Below are positions 11,581 to 21,388 of a stretch of DNA of 64,000 nt, one piece after another. The position numbers and the translations under genes are program-made. The stretch's first letter is position 1, and every line of letters begins with the position of its first letter. Source of the DNA: Methanoregula sp. (GTDB taxonomy: Archaea; Halobacteriota; Methanomicrobia; Methanomicrobiales; Methanospirillaceae); the NCBI RefSeq assembly GCF_028712425.1, contig NZ_JAQTQD010000013.1, forward strand, positions 1 to 64,000, in the 5' to 3' direction. The notes below the pieces were generated by a model. That model was not told the origin of the DNA. It saw only the letters and a program-made list of their open reading frames with translations, and made no database searches.

Positions 11581-12180
11581 ATGACGGGATCGCTCATCAC
11601 CCCGGAAGTCTTTGCCTTTGTCATTGTACCTGTCCTGATCTTCCTTGCCCGTGTCTGCGACATGAGCCTTGACACGATCCGGGTCATCTTCGTCTCGAAA
11701 GGGATCCGCTATCTCCCGGCAATCGTCGGCTTTTTCGAGGTGATCATCTGGCTCGTGGCCATCGGGCAGGTGATGAACAACCTCACCAATGTTGTCTGTT
11801 ACCTTGCGTACGGTGCTGGATTTGCCACCGGCACCATCATCGGCATGGCCATCGAGGAGCGCCTCTCGCTCGGCCTTGCCATCGTCAGGATCATCACGGA
11901 TGAAGACCCGGCCGGGCTTATCCAAATCCTGCGTTCGCACGATTACGGGGTGACGGTCCTCGACGGGGAGGGCGGCAAGGGACAAGTCAAGGTCATCTTC
12001 ACCATCATCAAGCGGCAGGACCTGCAGCATGTTGTTGCCATCATCAAGGATTTCAACCCCGATGCCTTCTACTCGGTCGAGGATGTCAAATCGGTGGCAG
12101 AAGGAGTATTTCCTTCCCACAATTCCCATGCCCTCCTCCGGTGGGCAGACCTTTTGAGCCTGCGCCCGAAGGGGAAATGA
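11581..12180 (+). CDS. DUF5698/DUF2179 family membrane protein
   Basis: A 199-residue protein of the UPF0316/DUF2179 type. The N-terminal half has three or four membrane helices (FAFVIVPVLIFLARVCDMSLDTIRV is the typical opening, with the SLDTIR signature), then YLPAIVGFFEVIIWLVAIGQVM. The C-terminal cytosolic DUF2179 domain (residues about 105-165) contains the DYGVTVLDGEGGKG and IIKRQDLQHVVAIIKDFNPDAFYSVEDV motifs seen at the C-terminus of YitT-like proteins, a small ligand-binding fold of unknown ligand. It is upstream of the AAA-TOPRIM pair on the same strand, but a joint role is not evident. Confidence 0.85.
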   Translation: MTGSLITPEVFAFVIVPVLIFLARVCDMSLDTIRVIFVSKGIRYLPAIVGFFEVIIWLVAIGQVMNNLTNVVCYLAYGAGFATGTIIGMAIEERLSLGLAIVRIITDEDPAGLIQILRSHDYGVTVLDGEGGKGQVKVIFTIIKRQDLQHVVAIIKDFNPDAFYSVEDVKSVAEGVFPSHNSHALLRWADLLSLRPKGK

Positions 12181-12254
12181 GGGAGTATCCCCCTTCACTC
12201 CCGCAACCAATACCTTCTTTTTGTTCCAGGGCGACGATGACACAAGGAGTGTAT

Positions 12255-13520
12255 ATGCCGATCCAGCAGATCCATGTGGAAAATTTCAAGAGTTTCTCCG
12301 AGCTCGACATCAACCTTGCACGGTTCAATGTCGTGATCGGGTCAAATGCGGCGGGGAAGTCCAACTTCATCAGCATCTTCCGGTTCCTGCGGGACATTGC
12401 CACCGCGGGAGTCGTGAACGCGATTGCGATGCAGGGCGGTGCGGACTATCTCCGGAACGCGAAGATCGGCATATCACGCGACCTCGTAATCCGCGTCCGG
12501 TACGTTCCCGAGAGCATGCTTGAGTACGTAGAGAACACGGGAGAGGGCCCGGCACTGCTGGGGATGCGGGCCTGCGAGTCCTGCTACGAGTTTGCGCTGC
12601 GGTTCACCGGCCACCAGGACGAATTTTCCATTGTAAAGGACCGGCTCGAGATCGGGTGCGATGTCTCGGCCTGCCGGCATAACGGGGCAGAGGTTGTCGA
12701 GGATCGCCTCATCGGGAAGGGGAAGATTGCAATCGAGAGCGAGAACGGAAAAATCCACTACTCGGTCACCATACCGCCGGGCTGCCCGCTTCGGGAGGAG
12801 GAGATTATCCCCCTCTTCTTCCGGAACAAGCAGCTGCCGGAGAAGACGCTCCTGTTAGAAACCATCTACGGATTTCCCCTCCCCCACCTTGAAAAATTCT
12901 TTGACCGGATCGCGGTATACGACATTGACCCGAAACTCCCGAAGAAAGGAGCGGTCATCACCGGGAAGCGCGAACTGGACCCCGACGGGGGAAACCTCGC
13001 CCTCGTGCTCAAGCGGATCATCGATGACCCCGAGAAGAAGCGGAAGTTCTCAAACCTCCTCCGGGACACCCTGCCATTCGTGGAGGAGTTTTCGGTCCAG
13101 AAGTTCATGGACGTCTCCCTCATCCTCACCCTCCGCGAACGCTATGCAAAGGAGCGGGACCTGCCGGCCTCCTCGCTCTCCGACGGGACGATCATTATCT
13201 TTGCCCTGATCATCGCGCTCTATTTCGAGGACAAGCCGTTTATCATCATCGAGGAACCGGTCAGCCACATCCACCCGTTCCTGGTCGGGCGCCTGATCGC
13301 CATGATGAAGGAGGCCTCCAAAAAGAAGCAGATCCTCCTCACCACCCACAGTACCGAGGTGGTCCGGCACACCGGGCTTGACAACATCCTCCTCATCTCC
13401 CGGGACAGCGAGGGCTTCTCGATAGTTTCCCGGCCGGCAGACAAGGAGGAAGTGCGGACGTTCCTCGAGAACGAGATCGGCATCGAGGAACTCTATATCC
13501 AGAACCTGCTGGGAATCTGA
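12255..13520 (+). CDS. AAA (RecF/OLD-like) ATPase, first gene of an AAA-TOPRIM pair
   Basis: A 421-residue ABC-type AAA ATPase of the RecF/SMC/OLD superfamily. It opens with the typical IQQIHVENFKSFSELDI strand, then Walker A GSNAAGKSN. A signature-like SLSDGT motif, Walker B FIIIEEPVSHIHP and the LTTHSTEV histidine switch lie near the C-terminus. No nuclease domain is fused to it; the next gene supplies a TOPRIM-like domain. Such split pairs are common among anti-phage systems such as OLD, Gabija and PARIS. The ATG at 12255 is chosen because AAGGAG lies six bases upstream. The gene after it starts directly at its stop. Confidence 0.85.
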   Translation: MPIQQIHVENFKSFSELDINLARFNVVIGSNAAGKSNFISIFRFLRDIATAGVVNAIAMQGGADYLRNAKIGISRDLVIRVRYVPESMLEYVENTGEGPALLGMRACESCYEFALRFTGHQDEFSIVKDRLEIGCDVSACRHNGAEVVEDRLIGKGKIAIESENGKIHYSVTIPPGCPLREEEIIPLFFRNKQLPEKTLLLETIYGFPLPHLEKFFDRIAVYDIDPKLPKKGAVITGKRELDPDGGNLALVLKRIIDDPEKKRKFSNLLRDTLPFVEEFSVQKFMDVSLILTLRERYAKERDLPASSLSDGTIIIFALIIALYFEDKPFIIIEEPVSHIHPFLVGRLIAMMKEASKKKQILLTTHSTEVVRHTGLDNILLISRDSEGFSIVSRPADKEEVRTFLENEIGIEELYIQNLLGI

Positions 13521-14057
13521 ATGAAGAAGCGCCTGTTCATCATGGTGGAGGGTGAGGACGATGTCCGGTTCTTCGGCCGGCTCATCAAACCCCTGATCGC
13601 CCCCCGCTATGATTCCATCGAGATCATCCCCTATGCCTGCATCAAGCGCGAGAAGGTGAACCGGTTCTTAAAGAGCGTTATCCTGATGAAGAACGACTAC
13701 ATCTTTGTCGCGGACATCGACAACGAACGGTCGGTGAGGGATAAGAAACAGATCCTGTACTACCGGTTCAGCGAGATCGACGGGGGAAAAATTGTGGTCG
13801 TGATCCGCGAGATCGAGAGCTGGTACTATGCAGGGATCGCAGGCTCACTGGCAACTGAACTGGGCATCACGGATACCGGGACTACAGACGACCTGACCAA
13901 GGAGGACTTCAATGCACGGATCCCGAGAAAATTCGATTCCCGGATCGATTTCATGTTCGAGATCCTCAAATCGTTCTCCCTTGAAACGGCAGCAAAGAAG
14001 AACGCGTCGTTCCGGTTTTTCACGGAGCGGTACCAGGTGTACGAGAACCCCGTCTGA
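13521..14057 (+). CDS. TOPRIM-like partner of the AAA ATPase
   Basis: A 178-residue protein that starts on the base after the ATPase stop. It begins with MVEGEDDVRFFGRL, resembling the first TOPRIM motif (hydrophobic strand, glutamate, G-x-x-D), followed by IFVADIDNERS (the DxD acidic pair) and REIESWYYAGI. These are the acidic residues expected of TOPRIM or DUF4276/DUF4435-like nuclease partners. It is shorter than the PARIS AriB protein and no further domain is visible. The predicted role is a metal-dependent nuclease or effector unleashed by the ATPase; this is inferred from pairing and motifs. Confidence 0.7.
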   Translation: MKKRLFIMVEGEDDVRFFGRLIKPLIAPRYDSIEIIPYACIKREKVNRFLKSVILMKNDYIFVADIDNERSVRDKKQILYYRFSEIDGGKIVVVIREIESWYYAGIAGSLATELGITDTGTTDDLTKEDFNARIPRKFDSRIDFMFEILKSFSLETAAKKNASFRFFTERYQVYENPV

Positions 14058-14322: not shown

Positions 14323-15507
14323 ATGGTCTCACGAGAGATTGTTAAGGATGTATTCTGGGTCGGTGCCCTGGATTTCGACCGGCGGCTCTTTGACGAGCTG
14401 ATCCCCCTGCCTGATGGGACGAGCTACAATTCGTACCTTATCCGGGGGAGCGAAAAGACCGCCCTGATTGACACGGTCGACCCGGCAAAAGAGGAGGAGC
14501 TCATTGTCAACCTCATCAAGCTCGGGATCGAGCAGATCGATTACATCATCATCAACCATGCCGAGCAGGACCATGCCGGCTCCCTCCCCATGGTACTGGA
14601 AATGTACCCAAGGGCAAAAGTCGTGACCAACGAGAAGTGCCGCGACCTTCTTGTTGCCCTCCTCCAGATCCAAAAAGAGTCCGTCATGGTGATAAAGGAC
14701 GGGGAGACCCTCTCCCTCGGGAATAAGACCGTAAAGTTCCTCCTTACTCCCTGGACCCACTGGCCCGAGACACAGCTCACGTTCCTTGTCGAGGACCGGA
14801 TCCTCTTCCCCTGCGACCTCTTCGGATTCCACCAGGCAACGAGCGAACTGTACATCACCAATGAGGCCGAGGCATACCGGTCAGCAAAACGGTATTATGC
14901 CGAGATCATGATGCCGTTCCGGAACAGCATCAAGGGGTACATCCCGAAGATCCGGGACCTGGACCCGGTCATGATCGCGCCGAGCCACGGCCCGATCAAC
15001 AAAAACCCGAAGTTCATGCTCGATGCATACGAGGACTGGGTCTCGGACAGCGTGAAGAACGTGGTCGTCCTCCCCTATGTCTCCATGCACGGGAGCACGC
15101 AGATCCTGGTCAACCACCTGGTCGGCGCCCTTATCCAGCGGGGCGTTGAGGTCAGACCGTTCAACCTCACGAAAACGGATATCGGGGAACTGGCATATGC
15201 CCTCGTGGACGCGGCAACGGTCGTGATCGGGACGCCGACCGTCCTCTTCGGGCCGCACCCCCAGGTTGTCTATGCCACCTACCTTGCCAATGCCTTAAAA
15301 TCCAAGATGCGGTTTGCATCAGTGATCGGCTCCTATGGCTGGGGCGGGAAAGCAACGGAGACGATCGTGAAGATGCTGGACCATGTCAAGGTCGAGGTGA
15401 TCGAGCCGGTTGTCATCAAGGGGCTCCCGGACGAGGCTGCCGTTGTTGCCATCAACCGCCTTGCCGATGACATTGCAAAGAAACATACAGAGATCGGTAT
15501 ATTATAA
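14323..15507 (+). CDS. fprA: A-type flavodiiron protein (F420H2 oxidase type)
   Basis: A 394-residue flavodiiron protein. The N-terminal beta-lactamase-like half carries the diiron ligands HAEQDHAG (H79, E81, D83, H84), TPWTHWPE (H146), CDLFGF (D165) and PSHGP (H222). The C-terminal flavodoxin domain starts near residue 250 (VVVLPYVSMHGSTQ) and binds FMN. In methanogens this enzyme reduces O2 to water with reduced coenzyme F420; the family is known, while the donor here is inferred. It sits between rubredoxin and desulfoferrodoxin in an oxygen-defence operon. Confidence 0.95.
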   Translation: MVSREIVKDVFWVGALDFDRRLFDELIPLPDGTSYNSYLIRGSEKTALIDTVDPAKEEELIVNLIKLGIEQIDYIIINHAEQDHAGSLPMVLEMYPRAKVVTNEKCRDLLVALLQIQKESVMVIKDGETLSLGNKTVKFLLTPWTHWPETQLTFLVEDRILFPCDLFGFHQATSELYITNEAEAYRSAKRYYAEIMMPFRNSIKGYIPKIRDLDPVMIAPSHGPINKNPKFMLDAYEDWVSDSVKNVVVLPYVSMHGSTQILVNHLVGALIQRGVEVRPFNLTKTDIGELAYALVDAATVVIGTPTVLFGPHPQVVYATYLANALKSKMRFASVIGSYGWGGKATETIVKMLDHVKVEVIEPVVIKGLPDEAAVVAINRLADDIAKKHTEIGIL

Positions 15508-15523
15508 CCTGAAGGAATGATCC

Positions 15524-15904
15524 ATGACGAAGATGCCGGAAGTGTACAAGTGCGGTGTCTGCGGGAATATCACGATGGTCGTAAGCCCTTCGGGAGGCAC
15601 CCTGCTCTGCTGCGGCCAGCCGATGAACCTCCAGGGCGAGAAGAAAGACGATGCAGGGAAGGAGAAGCATGTCCCGGTCATCGGGAAGACCGCAAACGGG
15701 ATCCGCGTGAAACTCGGAGAAATCCCTCACCCCATGGAGGAGAAGCATTTCATCCAGTGGATCGAGGTGATCTCGGGAGGAGACCTGTATGTCCACGGGC
15801 TGAGGCCCGGCCAGGCGCCGGAAGCAGAGTTCCCCGTGAAGGCCGACCATGTAAAGGTCAGGGCATTCTGCAATCTCCACGGCCTCTGGACAACCAGCCA
15901 CTAA
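15524..15904 (+). CDS. dfx: Desulfoferrodoxin (two-iron superoxide reductase)
   Basis: A 126-residue class I superoxide reductase that converts superoxide to hydrogen peroxide without releasing oxygen. The N-terminal desulforedoxin domain has the CGVC...CC iron site (C10, C13, C29, C30). The catalytic centre has histidines at EKHVP (H49), HPMEEKH (H69, H75) and the CNLH pair (C116, H119), so both iron sites look intact. An AAGGAATGATCC precedes the ATG. A T7 run directly after the stop is a likely terminator of the rubredoxin-fprA-dfx operon. Confidence 0.95.
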   Translation: MTKMPEVYKCGVCGNITMVVSPSGGTLLCCGQPMNLQGEKKDDAGKEKHVPVIGKTANGIRVKLGEIPHPMEEKHFIQWIEVISGGDLYVHGLRPGQAPEAEFPVKADHVKVRAFCNLHGLWTTSH

Positions 15905-15909
15905 TCTCC

Positions 15910-15916
15910 TTTTTTT
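15910..15916 (+). terminator. Oligo-T terminator after the oxygen-defence operon
   Basis: Seven thymines six bases after the dfx stop, followed by a further T-rich stretch. Oligo-T tracts on the coding strand are sufficient for archaeal RNA polymerase termination. Confidence 0.55.
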
Positions 15917-15961
15917 CCTTTCACGTTAATTCAAATAGATCCCGGCAGTAACCCATAAGTG

Positions 15962-17419
15962 ATGCGCCGGCTCGAACACCTCTCCACGACCCTTGCCGAT
16001 CTTGGAGATATCTTCACGTTCATTGCCCCGGTGACGTGTCTTCCCCTCCTTGTCTGCATTATCTTCTCCGAGTGGGAGATGTTGTTGCCCATGGCCACTG
16101 TCCCGGCCGTATTTCTTGTTGCCGGTCTCTTCTTCCGGCAGCTCCCCCGCAGTGCCAAGGGCAGCAGGCTCTCGATGGCGATGTGCTCGGTCGCCCTCTT
16201 CTGGTTTGCCTGCGCCGTTGTCAGCGGGATACCGTTCATGCTGGGCCTGCACATGAGTTTCACTGACGCAGTTTTCGAGGGGATGGCCGGGTGGACGGGT
16301 ACGGCCTTCTCGATGATCCGGTCCGTTGATACCGCCCCGTACACCCTCCTCTTCTGGCGATCCTACATGCAGTGGATCGGGGGGATCGGGATCATCGCGT
16401 TCACCGTGGCGCTGGCCAGCAGCACGGGACTGTTCCGGTCGCGGATCTTCCGGGACGAGAGCCGGGACGAATCACTGATGCCCGCCGTTGCAGCAGCCGG
16501 CCGGTCCCTCTGGAAGATCTATGCCGTACTCACGTTCTGTGCCATCGGCCTGATCCTTTTTACCGGCCTTTCGCTCTGGGAGTCGGTGAACCTTGCCCTC
16601 TCGGCGATCTCCACCGGCGGGTTCACCCTGCATGCAGGAGGTATCCTGTTCTATGACAGCGTGGTTCTCCAGCTCCTCCTCATCCCGATCATGATCGCGG
16701 GTGCCCTTCCCTTCAAGCTCTATTTCCTGATCCTGGAGCACCGGCGCCTGAGCCTGTTTGGCGACGAGCAGGTCAGGATCTTCTTCCTCCTCCTCCTTGC
16801 CGGGACGGCGGTTCTGGTCTATGACCTGGTGCTCTTCTCCGATACCGGTCTGCCTGCTGCAGTCCTCCAGGGCCTGTTCATGGCAGCATCGGCACTGACG
16901 ACAACCGGGTTCCAGACCGTGAATCTCCAGACCTGGGCCGGCGTGACGATCCTCTTCCTTGCCATGCTGACCTTTATCGGGGGAGCAGCCGGTAGCACGG
17001 CCGGCGGGATCAAGCTGGACAGGATAGCCTTTGGCGTGCGGGCGCTGTTGTGGTGGTTCCGCCGGTTCTTTGTCAGCGGCAAGGTCCTTGTCCCGTTCCG
17101 GGTAGAAGGGAGGGTCATCCCGCGGGACACTGCCGAGCTGGAGACAGCAAAGAACATGCTTGTCATCCTCCTCTCCGTCATCATTATCTTTGTCGCCTCC
17201 CTTGCCGTCCTCCAGTACCATCTCACCACGTTCTCCTTAACGGAGATCGTCTTCCAGGTGGTCTCGGCCTTCTCCACCTGTGGTATCAACACCGGGTACA
17301 TCATGCCCGATATGCCGGTCATCTCGAAATGGATCTTCATCCTCGTGATGTGGATAGGGAGGCTTGAGGTCATCCCGGTCATCATCCTCTTCCTTTCCCT
17401 GGTCCGCGGCCCGGAATAA
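15962..17419 (+). CDS. trkH: TrkH-type potassium transporter membrane subunit
   Basis: A 485-residue membrane protein of the TrkH/KtrB family that conducts K+ (or Na+). The four pore loops with filter glycines can be picked out: GMAGWTGTAFS, AISTGGFT, SALTTTGFQT and SAFSTCGINTGY. The long GGAAGSTAGGIKLDR segment after the third pore is also characteristic. The ATG at 15962 is taken rather than the preceding GTG. The regulatory TrkA subunit (NAD-binding ring) is not adjacent, so it must be encoded elsewhere if used. Confidence 0.93.
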   Translation: MRRLEHLSTTLADLGDIFTFIAPVTCLPLLVCIIFSEWEMLLPMATVPAVFLVAGLFFRQLPRSAKGSRLSMAMCSVALFWFACAVVSGIPFMLGLHMSFTDAVFEGMAGWTGTAFSMIRSVDTAPYTLLFWRSYMQWIGGIGIIAFTVALASSTGLFRSRIFRDESRDESLMPAVAAAGRSLWKIYAVLTFCAIGLILFTGLSLWESVNLALSAISTGGFTLHAGGILFYDSVVLQLLLIPIMIAGALPFKLYFLILEHRRLSLFGDEQVRIFFLLLLAGTAVLVYDLVLFSDTGLPAAVLQGLFMAASALTTTGFQTVNLQTWAGVTILFLAMLTFIGGAAGSTAGGIKLDRIAFGVRALLWWFRRFFVSGKVLVPFRVEGRVIPRDTAELETAKNMLVILLSVIIIFVASLAVLQYHLTTFSLTEIVFQVVSAFSTCGINTGYIMPDMPVISKWIFILVMWIGRLEVIPVIILFLSLVRGPE

Positions 17420-17765: not shown

Positions 17766-17897
17766 GACATCTTAGGGTCACCGCTCCTTCTGTTTAATAC
17801 CTGTGCCTCCCCACGGGATTCCTGCGAGACACATTGCCCAAAATTCGTTCACGCTCGCCAGTCCGGCGCAAGTGTACTTTTGTTAACATCAGGAGAT

Positions 17898-17910
17898 CTA
17901 ATATAAATTG
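17898..17910 (+). promoter_or_regulatory. TATA box for the nitrogenase-like operon, probably leaderless
   Basis: The element CTAATATAAATTG is centred about 25 bases upstream of the ATG at 17929. That is the usual distance from TATA box to start site in archaea, so the transcript would begin close to the start codon and lack a leader. No ribosome-binding site is seen between the two. Confidence 0.6.
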
Positions 17911-17928
17911 CCGCCCCACTGTGTAGTA

Positions 17929-18741
17929 ATGAAACAGATCGCCCTGTACGGGAAAGGAGGCATCGGGAAGTCCACGACTTCGGCCAACCTCTCTGCCGCA
18001 CTCTCCCACCGGGATCTCTCCGTCCTCCAGATCGGGTGCGATCCCAAGCGCGACAGCACCCGGATGCTGATGCAGGGCCGGTTCATCCCTACGGTGATGG
18101 ACCTTGTCCGTGTCCGGGGCGATGCAAACGTCTCCCTTGAGGATGTTGTCTTCACCGGCTACAATGGCATCCGGTGCGTAGAGGCGGGCGGACCTGAGCC
18201 GGGCGTTGGCTGTGCCGGGCGCGGGATCATTGCCACGTTCCAGCTGCTCGAGAAGTTCGGGGCCCTGAAAGGCGACGTTATCGTGTACGATGTCCTCGGC
18301 GACGTTGTCTGCGGGGGCTTTGCCATGCCGATGCGGGAGGGCTATGCGCAGGAGATCTATCTTGTCACCTCCGGCGAACTGATGTCCCTGTATGCGGCAA
18401 ATAATATCTGCAAGGCAGTCCAGAGGCTGGCCTCGCGGGTGAAGAGCAAGTGCCGGCTTGGCGGGGTGATCTGTAATGCCAAGGGGCAGCCACGCGAAGA
18501 GGAACTGGTATCGGAGTTTGCCCGTCGCGTGAACAGCACGATGGTCCAGTATATCCCCCGGGACCATGTTGTCCAGCAGGCCGAGGTGAACCGGCAGACC
18601 GTGATCGAGTTTGCGCCCGACTCGCCCCAGGCCGGCCATTACCGCTCCCTTGCAGGAAGGATCGTGGAGAACACCAATCTTTCCATCCCTACTCCTCTGG
18701 AGACTGATGACCTCGAATCCCTTGCCCGCGAATTCCTCTAG
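17929..18741 (+). CDS. Nitrogenase reductase-like Fe protein (NifH/CfbC family)
   Basis: A 270-residue NifH-like ATPase. The P-loop is GKGGIGKST (8-16), switch I is CDPKRDST, and the two cysteines that would bridge the [4Fe-4S] cluster in the dimer are C95 (GVGCAGRG) and C128 (GDVVCGGF). It resembles the CfbC/BchL-type reductases more than NifH of N2-fixing operons. It should donate electrons, with ATP hydrolysis, to the two component-1-like proteins encoded directly downstream. Because those two proteins differ from CfbD, CfbC function in F430 synthesis is not assumed. The transcript is probably leaderless. Confidence 0.88.
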
Positions 18742-19750
18742 GCTCGGCGGCTGTACGCTCACGGGGGCGATCTCGGTGACCTCCCATCTCCGCGATACGG
18801 TCACCGTTGTCCACGGGCCGAAGGGGTGCAGCCATCACAATGTCTCCCTCCTCCATGCCAGCTGGCTTGACAACGACCATGCTGTCCTCCCCAGCCTCCT
18901 CTCCACGGGACTCTCCGAAAAAGAGGTGATCTTCGGGGGGGAAGATGCTCTCAGGAAGGCGATCGGATCCGCGGCGGGACAGGAGGGTGTCCGTGCGGTT
19001 GTTGTCCTCTCCACCTGCGTTGTCGGGACGATCGGGGACGATGTCGGCGCTGTCTGTTCGGAGGAGTACCGCGTGCCGGTGATATCCATCCCCTCGGCGG
19101 GATTCCTCGGGGGCACGTTCCAGGACGGGATGAACAAGGCCCTCATCGCCCTTGCGGGTACGGCAGGGCCCTGCCAGAAAGACCGCGGTGTCAACATCAT
19201 CGGGGAGATGAACCTCGAATTCGAGGTTGAGGAGAATTACCGGGAGATCGAACGGCTCCTTTCCCTCCTGCACCTCCCGGTGAACCTCCGGTTTGTCCAC
19301 AACCTTTCGTGGGACCAGATTGCACGGCTCGGGAGAGCAGAGCTTAATATCCTGCGGAGCCCGGCCCTTGTCCCGGTGGGAGAGTACCTGAAAAACCGGT
19401 TCGGCACCCCGTATATCCCCTCGTTCCCCCACGGGCTCTCTGCAACCCTCTCGTTCATCCGTGAGGTTGCAGCCCATTGCGGCATCGACGGGCAGGTGGC
19501 ACTGCGGGAGGAGTGCCTGCGGCAGGAAGAGATGCTTGGCCAGTTCTCCGATCTCCGGCAGGTGCCCGTCTCCCTCGACCGCGTCCACTCCGGAGAGGAC
19601 GAACTCCTTGCTGCCGAGGAGCTGGCTGCTGCGCTGGACCTGGTGATGGGCACACCGGGAACGTGCGCCCGGCTGCCGGTGAGTGCTGCCGTCGGGACCG
19701 CCGGGACACGGCGGATGCTCCACCGCTGGAGGAGGGCTGCCCATGCCTGA
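18707..19750 (+). CDS. Nitrogenase component 1-like protein, D/E-type subunit
   Basis: A 347-residue protein of the NifD/NifK/NifE/NifN superfamily. Three cysteines lie where P-cluster or Fe-S ligands are found: C16 (GGCTLTGA), C41 (HGPKGCSHH) and C104 ([13 protein letters not shown]). The middle and C-terminal parts lack an obvious cysteine matching the FeMo-cofactor ligand of NifD, so N2 reduction is unlikely. The N-terminus does not resemble the CfbD opening. The ATG at 18707 has GGAG just upstream and overlaps the H-like gene by 35 bp. It probably pairs with the next gene as a heterodimer or heterotetramer. Confidence 0.8.
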
Positions 19751-20864
19751 GTGCGACAATCCCCTCTGGCCGTGCGCCATGACCGGTGCCGCTGCCTGCC
19801 TTGCCGGGTTCGACGGGATCGCGGTTGTCATCCACGGTTCCAGCGGGTGCTATTACTACCCCACAACCCTCCTCCATGCGCCGCTCCATGGCACGTTCAT
19901 CCTCGAGGACGACGTGATCTTCGGTTCGGAGGACCGGCTCCAGGAGGTGATTGGCAGCCTGTCGGGGACGGGAAAACGGATCGCAGTTATCACGACCTGC
20001 GTTCCGGCCCTTCTCGGTGAGGACATCCGGTCCATGCTCGATGAACACGACGTGATCCTTGTCGACAGCCCGGGCTTTGCCGGGGATGTCGAGACCGGCT
20101 ATGCCAAAGCCCTTGCCGTGCTTGGACCTCAGGTTGACCCGGAAACATCCGGAGTCAACATCGATGGAGCCTGCCTCTTTGACCCGTTTGCTGCCGGGAA
20201 CGTCCAGGAGGCCAGAAGGCTCCTTGATATGGTGTCAGTTCCCGTTGCAACGGTCTTTTCATCGGACCGGTACGACTGCGTGCACCATGCTGCTCCGTTC
20301 ACCATCAGCACCAACGGGGACTTCCCCTCCGGCATCGGGGACAATCTTGGCGGAATGCTGGGTCTTACTGGCGTCCGAGAGACCTTCGCCCGGATTGGCG
20401 ACACTATTGATGGTACTGACTGCGATCCGGTCTTTTCGGAACTGGAACAGCAGGAGGAGCGCCTTGTCCGTGCGTGCGATAAGTTTCTCCAGCGGTACGA
20501 TCCCCCGTTTGCTGCGATCTTTGCCGGTTCCTCGTATGCCCTCTTTGCCGCTGAAACCCTCCACCATTATCTTGACGCGGAGATCTGCTGCATCGGGACC
20601 CGGAATGCACCCGGCAACAGCCGCTTCAGGGCTGAGCAGGTATCCAGTCTCTCGCGGGCCCGCGACCTGATCGCGACTCATGAGCCGGATCTTGTGATCG
20701 GCTCCTCGTTCGAACGCTCGCTCAACGGAGAGAAAGCATTTACCGGGATCATCCCCCCGCTCCGGGGCCGGGTCAGGATCTATCCTGCACCGCTCGCCGG
20801 TATCAACGGCACCCTCTCGTTCATGGAATCTGTGCTGAACTCCTGCATGGATAAAAAACCCTGA
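19743..20864 (+). CDS. Nitrogenase component 1-like protein, K/N-type subunit
   Basis: A 373-residue second component-1-like protein. The cysteine set is again present: C11 (PLWPCAMTGA), C36 (HGSSGCYYY) and C86 (ITTCVPALLGEDI), so a cluster shared with the D-type subunit is plausible. The C-terminal domain (PPFAAIFAGSSYALFAAETL, then HEPDLVIGSSFERSL) is the typical Rossmann-like third domain. It overlaps the D-type gene by 8 bp and has GGAGGAGGG upstream. No nifI (GlnB-like), nifE/N or nifB genes lie next to it. The substrate is unknown. Confidence 0.8.
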   Translation: MPECDNPLWPCAMTGAAACLAGFDGIAVVIHGSSGCYYYPTTLLHAPLHGTFILEDDVIFGSEDRLQEVIGSLSGTGKRIAVITTCVPALLGEDIRSMLDEHDVILVDSPGFAGDVETGYAKALAVLGPQVDPETSGVNIDGACLFDPFAAGNVQEARRLLDMVSVPVATVFSSDRYDCVHHAAPFTISTNGDFPSGIGDNLGGMLGLTGVRETFARIGDTIDGTDCDPVFSELEQQEERLVRACDKFLQRYDPPFAAIFAGSSYALFAAETLHHYLDAEICCIGTRNAPGNSRFRAEQVSSLSRARDLIATHEPDLVIGSSFERSLNGEKAFTGIIPPLRGRVRIYPAPLAGINGTLSFMESVLNSCMDKKP

Positions 20865-20977: not shown

Positions 20978-21388
20978 ATGATGGAAAAAGCAGGGTATCT
21001 CCAGGCAACAAGGTCGCAGGCAGTTGACAGCGATGGCATCCCCCACGGGATTGTCGAGCTCCACATTCGCGGGAGCCGGTACGCGATCCGGCGCTCCGAC
21101 CTGATCCGGGCGGTAACCGGCAGGGTCCACGTCCAGGTCGAGGACCTTACCCGGAACTGGGGGGATTTCCTCGGCCAGACCCGGGGCCTTGCGCAGGTCT
21201 CGGCATCCGGGAAAGCCCTGAACATCGACCTCTTCGGGCTGGGGAGTTATACCCTCTCGCTGTCATCGCTCAAGGCCGTGCTCTATGGCAAGGAACGCCT
21301 TGCGGTCATCGTGCGCATCCCCGAGGCCCCGCTGGTCAGGATCCGGAGGGTAACGGATGGCCAGCAGACCATTGGCGCCGCAGTCTGA
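20978..21388 (+). CDS. Unknown conserved-looking protein downstream of the HDK operon
   Basis: A 136-residue soluble protein with alternating strands (VELHIRGSRYAIRRSDLIRAVTG, then ALNIDLFGLGSYTLSLSSLKAVL) that suggest a small beta-rich domain. It has no cysteines and no recognised motif. The start is one of two adjacent methionines (20978 or 20981), 38 bases after a possible TATA element (GTTATATACC at 20928-20937), so it probably has its own promoter rather than being part of the nitrogenase-like operon. I do not recognise its function. Confidence 0.6.
   Translation: MMEKAGYLQATRSQAVDSDGIPHGIVELHIRGSRYAIRRSDLIRAVTGRVHVQVEDLTRNWGDFLGQTRGLAQVSASGKALNIDLFGLGSYTLSLSSLKAVLYGKERLAVIVRIPEAPLVRIRRVTDGQQTIGAAV

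Follow-up and report, generated by a model that had tools for sequence, protein, structure and literature searches.

The window analysed here, a stretch of 64,000 nucleotides from Methanoregula sp., carries a three-gene operon whose products, H, D and K, are best read as an order-specific variant of the nitrogenase-like reductases. With a probability that we put at roughly 0.6, H-D-K would be an ATP-dependent two-component reductase specific to the Methanomicrobiales, with a P-cluster-like relay, no FeMoco-type cofactor and an organic substrate, whose H protein also serves CfbD. In such an enzyme an H homodimer carrying one [4Fe-4S] cluster would hydrolyse ATP and donate electrons of low potential to a D2K2 heterotetramer, where a P-cluster-like iron-sulfur cluster held by three cysteines of D and three of K would relay them to the bound substrate; D would hold no FeMoco-type cofactor, and the same H would reduce homodimeric CfbD, encoded elsewhere, in the F430 pathway. 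The characterised clades of the superfamily are concerned with N2 fixation, chlorophyll, F430, C-S cleavage and sulfonate use. H-D-K is a clade conserved across an important methanogen order and without an assigned function, and it unites P-cluster ligands, the lack of cofactor ligands and a D subunit that lacks a domain, which were not found together in any characterised member compared. No description of the clade was found in the literature searched, mostly outside subscription journals, and the missing domain of D, the fixation across the order and the absence of another CfbC are not described in the papers searched.

Layout, promoter and conservation of the operon

The three open reading frames lie in a row on the forward strand of contig C50, in a genome of 2.67 Mb. 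H (17929-18741; ATG at 17929, stop at 18741) is a NifH-like Fe protein of 270 aa, D (18707-19750; ATG at 18707) a component-1 alpha-like subunit of 347 aa, and K (19743-20864; ATG at 19743) a component-1 beta-like subunit of 373 aa. The operon is real and was correctly delimited in a preliminary description of this DNA, as were the P-loop of H (GKGGIGKST), its bridging cysteines C95 and C128 and the tight overlaps, which by the ORF reading amount to 35 bp between H and D and 8 bp between D and K; Shine-Dalgarno-like sequences precede D (GGAG) and K (GGAGG). Because H and D overlap, there are no nifI1 or nifI2 genes between them, as had also been noted. The leaderless promoter proposed at the same time agrees with the region before H (17875-17928, forward strand), where a TTAACATCAG element at about 17883-17892 is followed by a TATA-like box at about 17900-17907, some 27 bp upstream of the ATG. 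Most of 29 aligned orthologous operons have TTAACWTCAG-like and TATA-like elements at much the same distance from the ATG, and the two together would fit a leaderless start of H. In upstream alignments the TTAAC element is not kept before stand-alone H genes. A regulon sharing this promoter was considered and dropped, since in five genomes exact matches to TTAACWTCAG were found at the operon only (in four of the five) and one-mismatch matches occurred at about the control frequency, so that the motif stands before other genes no more often than chance would give.

The operon is under purifying selection, with dN/dS of H, D and K at 0.03-0.18 against three relatives. For D and K, which might be taken for a decaying relic beside an H still needed as CfbC, given that D has lost a domain and that at least three genera lack D-K, the values are 0.08-0.18; with ligands invariant, both genes kept across six families, and neither frameshifts nor lost cysteines among the sequences read (37 of D, 36 of K), decay of this kind appears highly improbable.

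Most of the family's 108 genomes carry an orthologue of D, with 40-98% identity. In a 393-genome sample of the phylum, D is found at 356 bits or more in almost every sampled Methanomicrobiales genome, and matches in other genomes of the phylum reach at most 191 bits, the next-best being fused proteins. Some 85,000 species were scanned with D; of the 134 matches, the best 80 carry the names Methanoregula, Methanoculleus, Methanofollis, Methanogenium, Methanolinea or those of uncultured Methanomicrobiales or Euryarchaeota archaea. Every one of the six Methanomicrobiales families sampled retains D-K, and H-D-K is a signature of the order. Genera g4 (G006), g9 and g13 of the order lack D; the genomes G006, G018, G019 and G079 have one Oxidored_nitro match each, at the level of CfbD, and K is therefore missing there as well. 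H is kept without D-K in g13 and g4, and Methanospirillum hungatei JF-1 has been listed with nifH and without nifDK (PMC8597730). In nearly every genome H stands directly before D, overlapping it or a few bases apart; the K gene of Methanoculleus is found 2-4 kb further downstream, in most cases on the opposite strand, and is still kept, and one genome (G009) has H on a different contig from D-K. Another, G059, holds two diverged copies of the entire operon, on contigs C28 and C32 (loci L086 and L087).

Ligands, folds and relatives of D and K

H matches Fer4_NifH (PF00142) at 8e-108; against Oxidored_nitro (PF00148), D reaches 3.7e-55 and covers just positions 1-251 of the 399 in the profile, and K (1.6e-34) aligns in two segments that jointly cover nearly all of it. 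Matches this strong are far from chance. On sequence grounds the three proteins are members of the nitrogenase superfamily, and the overall type of mechanism, that of a nitrogenase-like two-component reductase, appears well supported. D and K score far below the cut-offs of the NifD/K models and of the BchB/BchN/BchZ models, and reach 43.6 and 40 bits against the CfbD model TIGR03282, the cut-off of which is 268.4. Among family profiles the best named match of D is NifE, at 113 bits, to which structure comparison also points; plasmid records gave matches at the NifE/NifD/BchB level only.

The cysteines C16, C41 and C104 of D align with C72, C98 and C164 of NifD from a Rhizobium plasmid (C62, C88 and C154 in Azotobacter), and C11, C36 and C86 of K with C70, C95 and C153 of the Rhizobium plasmid NifK; among family orthologues the three of D are invariant in 37 sequences and the three of K in 36. 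FeMoco is ligated in NifD by Cys275 and His442. The column of the cofactor cysteine, which is C283 in Rhizobium NifD, C249 in NifE and C273 in a MarD-like protein, is occupied in D by Arg217, identical in 17 of 17 aligned D sequences, and the stretch of the third domain of NifD that holds the histidine ligand is absent from D in the alignment. AlphaFold models of D (pLDDT 88.0) and K (pLDDT 92.4) resemble NifE/NifD/Mar/BchB and VnfK/NifN/NifK/BchB chains, respectively. Beyond residue 280 the D model has just two short strands and two helices, so that its third domain is mostly absent; that of K is complete. Because the cysteine ligand is an invariant arginine and the covering domain is missing from D, a FeMoco-type cofactor is not expected. 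Judged from sequence, a four-cysteine [4Fe-4S] arrangement might take the place of the P-cluster-like cluster. Invariant residues in the third domain of K (G320, S321, S322, E324, P339 and R341, with a GSSFE motif at 320-324) and a conserved glycine-rich loop at 191-207, in which G199, G203 and G207 are invariant, suggest that the best-conserved candidate substrate pocket belongs to K.

The D sequences form a monophyletic group (100/100), which lies outside the NifDE (100/99), CfbD (100/100) and MarD-like (100/100) clades, the last of which was identified by one entry that matches the Mar structure 9d9u at 2e-72. K forms a clade of its own (support 100) without a supported sister. The tree thus puts D inside none of CfbD, NifEN and Mar, and the same holds for K at the tree resolution available; by tree, HMM score and ligand pattern both subunits stand outside nifDK, NifEN, Mar, Isr and CfbD. 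For D and K, the claim that the operon fits neither nifHDK nor cfbCD is upheld by these results, and so are the three cysteines assigned to P-cluster positions in each subunit and the lack of a cofactor cysteine in D; the loss of the third domain of D and the order-wide signature go beyond what had been described.

The sister of D (98/99) is the D part of fused NifH-NifE-like proteins. One of these, of 731 aa, is encoded in the same genome, followed by a NifN-like protein and preceded by an ABC-type ATPase (L009, G000:C38:1217-4398). Its D part, like D, has three cysteines and no cofactor cysteine (Thr242 in its place). It differs in the fusion of H and D, in the ATPase upstream and in keeping the third domain, and its NifN-like partner has one of the three cysteines, against three in K. 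Dos Santos et al. 2012 recorded such a pair and gave it no function (PMC3464626). The same study noted in general terms a class, including archaea, with three plus three cysteines and no FeMoco ligands (PMC3464626), so that the ligand pattern of D-K alone is not unheard of.

With NifHDK the operon shares the gene order, the six P-cluster cysteines and similar folds. It differs from NifHDK and NifEN in the absence of nifI and nifB from the operon, in its separate clade and in a D without the cofactor cysteine and third domain, the equivalent of Cys275 being Arg217 and the region of His442 falling in the missing domain. A scaffold like NifEN, which would carry or mature the NifB-made [8Fe-9S-C] L-cluster, might still be considered for D-K, since NifE is the best named match of D in profiles and structures, NifB is present, and the methyl-coenzyme M reductase activation complex, one conceivable recipient, holds L-clusters (PMC12176620). 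However, D is not placed with NifE or NifN and lies outside the NifDE clade, the cysteine at the cofactor position of NifE (C249 in Rhizobium) is Arg217, the domain that would cover the cluster is missing, and other methanogens activate methyl-coenzyme M reductase without D-K; a scaffolding role is thus quite unlikely.

Only a shade less probable still is the reduction of a small sulfur or other compound, as by Mar and Isr. Other superfamily members that were once unassigned do act in this way (PMC12552129, PMC11423573), Mar and Isr both have P-cluster-position cysteines in at least one subunit, and Mar, like D-K, has them in both. Yet MarD-like proteins retain the cofactor cysteine and form another clade, to which D does not belong, and Isr has one cysteine in D and three in K, with the radical SAM protein IsrB alongside (PMC11423573), whereas D of the present operon has three, and neither a radical SAM gene nor one for sulfur assimilation was seen beside it.

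H and the CfbD encoded elsewhere

Three further component-1-like proteins are encoded in the genome, two on contig C38 and CfbD on contig C1. The last of these scores 502.7 bits against TIGR03282 (cut-off 268.4), and the adjoining ORF, Mur-ligase-like and without a Pfam match, is probably CfbE. Of a separate cfbCD pair, which had been suggested as something to look for elsewhere in the genome, CfbD was therefore found and a second CfbC was not: the only strong NifH-type proteins in the genome are H and the fused one. CfbCD is of the ATP-dependent two-component type, as H-D-K would be, with the difference that its component 1 is a homodimer of one subunit, CfbD, in place of the two different subunits D and K. 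The reaction of CfbC and CfbD uses both proteins as well as ATP (PMC7242693).

CfbD is above its cut-off in 70 of 70 Methanomicrobiales genomes. Of 75 order genomes, 50 have just one protein that reaches E<=1e-60 against the CfbC model, and this is H; 12 of the 50 are single-contig (G016, G035, G065, G110, G193, G203, G232, G253, G258, G307, G317 and G345), and in seven genomes of four genera (G005, G021, G031, G095, G097, G101 and G103) CfbD lies 10-16 kb from H. Since there is no other CfbC in these genomes, H would serve CfbD; moreover, H persists where D-K is absent and therefore has another partner. H is thus probably a functional CfbC as well as the reductase of D-K, and it would be a candidate essential protein for methanogenesis in the Methanomicrobiales, because CfbD needs a reductase and only H is apparent. 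The earlier reading of the operon as an uncharacterised nitrogenase-like reductase is thus partly supported: it holds for D and K, which lie outside the known clades, while H is probably the CfbC of this organism too.

The name itself cannot be taken from profile scores. H reaches 416.7 bits against the NCBIfam CfbC model NF033200 (cut-off 402), but NifH-like proteins of nif-type operons also exceed this value, and naming H CfbC from NCBIfam alone was rejected on this account. Proteins of this kind that adjoin NifD-like genes were seen in G190, G156 and G143 (loci L237-L239). Automatic CfbC and NifH names in archaea are unreliable, and H is likely to be mis-annotated as nifH in surveys. In the tree H forms a clade of its own (support 96-98), apart from the CfbD-adjacent CfbC of other orders (100) and from NifH (99). 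A firm grouping of H with NifH or with CfbC was likewise set aside, as AU tests on its position reject none of three groupings (p 0.79-0.87).

Substrate and genomic neighbourhood

That the substrate is a tetrapyrrole or a related large ring is a guess, tentative and more apt to fail than to hold. A tetrapyrrole would also be the substrate if D-K were an accessory of the F430 pathway, a partner of H and CfbD that reduces or passes on either Ni-sirohydrochlorin a,c-diamide or a modified or later form of F430. The probable service of H to CfbD and its overlap with D-K in one operon favour such a role, as does the loss of cofactor ligands common to the tetrapyrrole reductases DPOR and COR (PMC11423573); DPOR (BchLNB) has no FeMoco ligands, as in D-K, and the K model resembles BchB. 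Other orders, however, make F430 without D-K, genera g13, g4 and g9 of this order are without it, and the single [4Fe-4S] cluster of DPOR is held by four ligands, three cysteines and one aspartate (PMC11423573). In DPOR and COR, which act on chlorophyll-type substrates, one subunit supplies three cysteines and its partner a single ligand, against the three plus three cysteines of D-K. An accessory role is accordingly unlikely, although it is better placed than either the scaffold or the sulfur-compound reading.

The preferred reading, of a two-component reductase that relays electrons through a P-cluster-like cluster to an organic substrate, can be carried further. D-K might have a P-cluster and no active-site metal cluster, the pocket might have moved to K because D lost its third domain, and the Fe protein might be shared with F430 biosynthesis throughout the order. 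This fuller version is rather doubtful, a little less so than the accessory role. The place of H outside the CfbD-linked CfbC clade and neighbours without a hint of a substrate count against the preferred reading itself. The conserved neighbours of the operon (FprA-like, TrkH and LeuC/LeuD-type genes) have no obvious link to it and name no pathway or substrate.

Upstream, at 14323-17419, an FprA-like flavoprotein with an ODP beta-lactamase fold, a desulfoferrodoxin and TrkH make up a neighbourhood that is conserved and seems to serve oxygen defence in part. The operon is followed on the same strand by a gene for a 136-aa protein without a Pfam match (20978-21388), conserved there in 73 loci. 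Further upstream, at 12141-14057, an AAA_21 ATPase (PF13304) is directly followed by a 178-aa protein without a Pfam match, and this arrangement, possibly a two-gene defence-like pair, is kept in about 25 loci.
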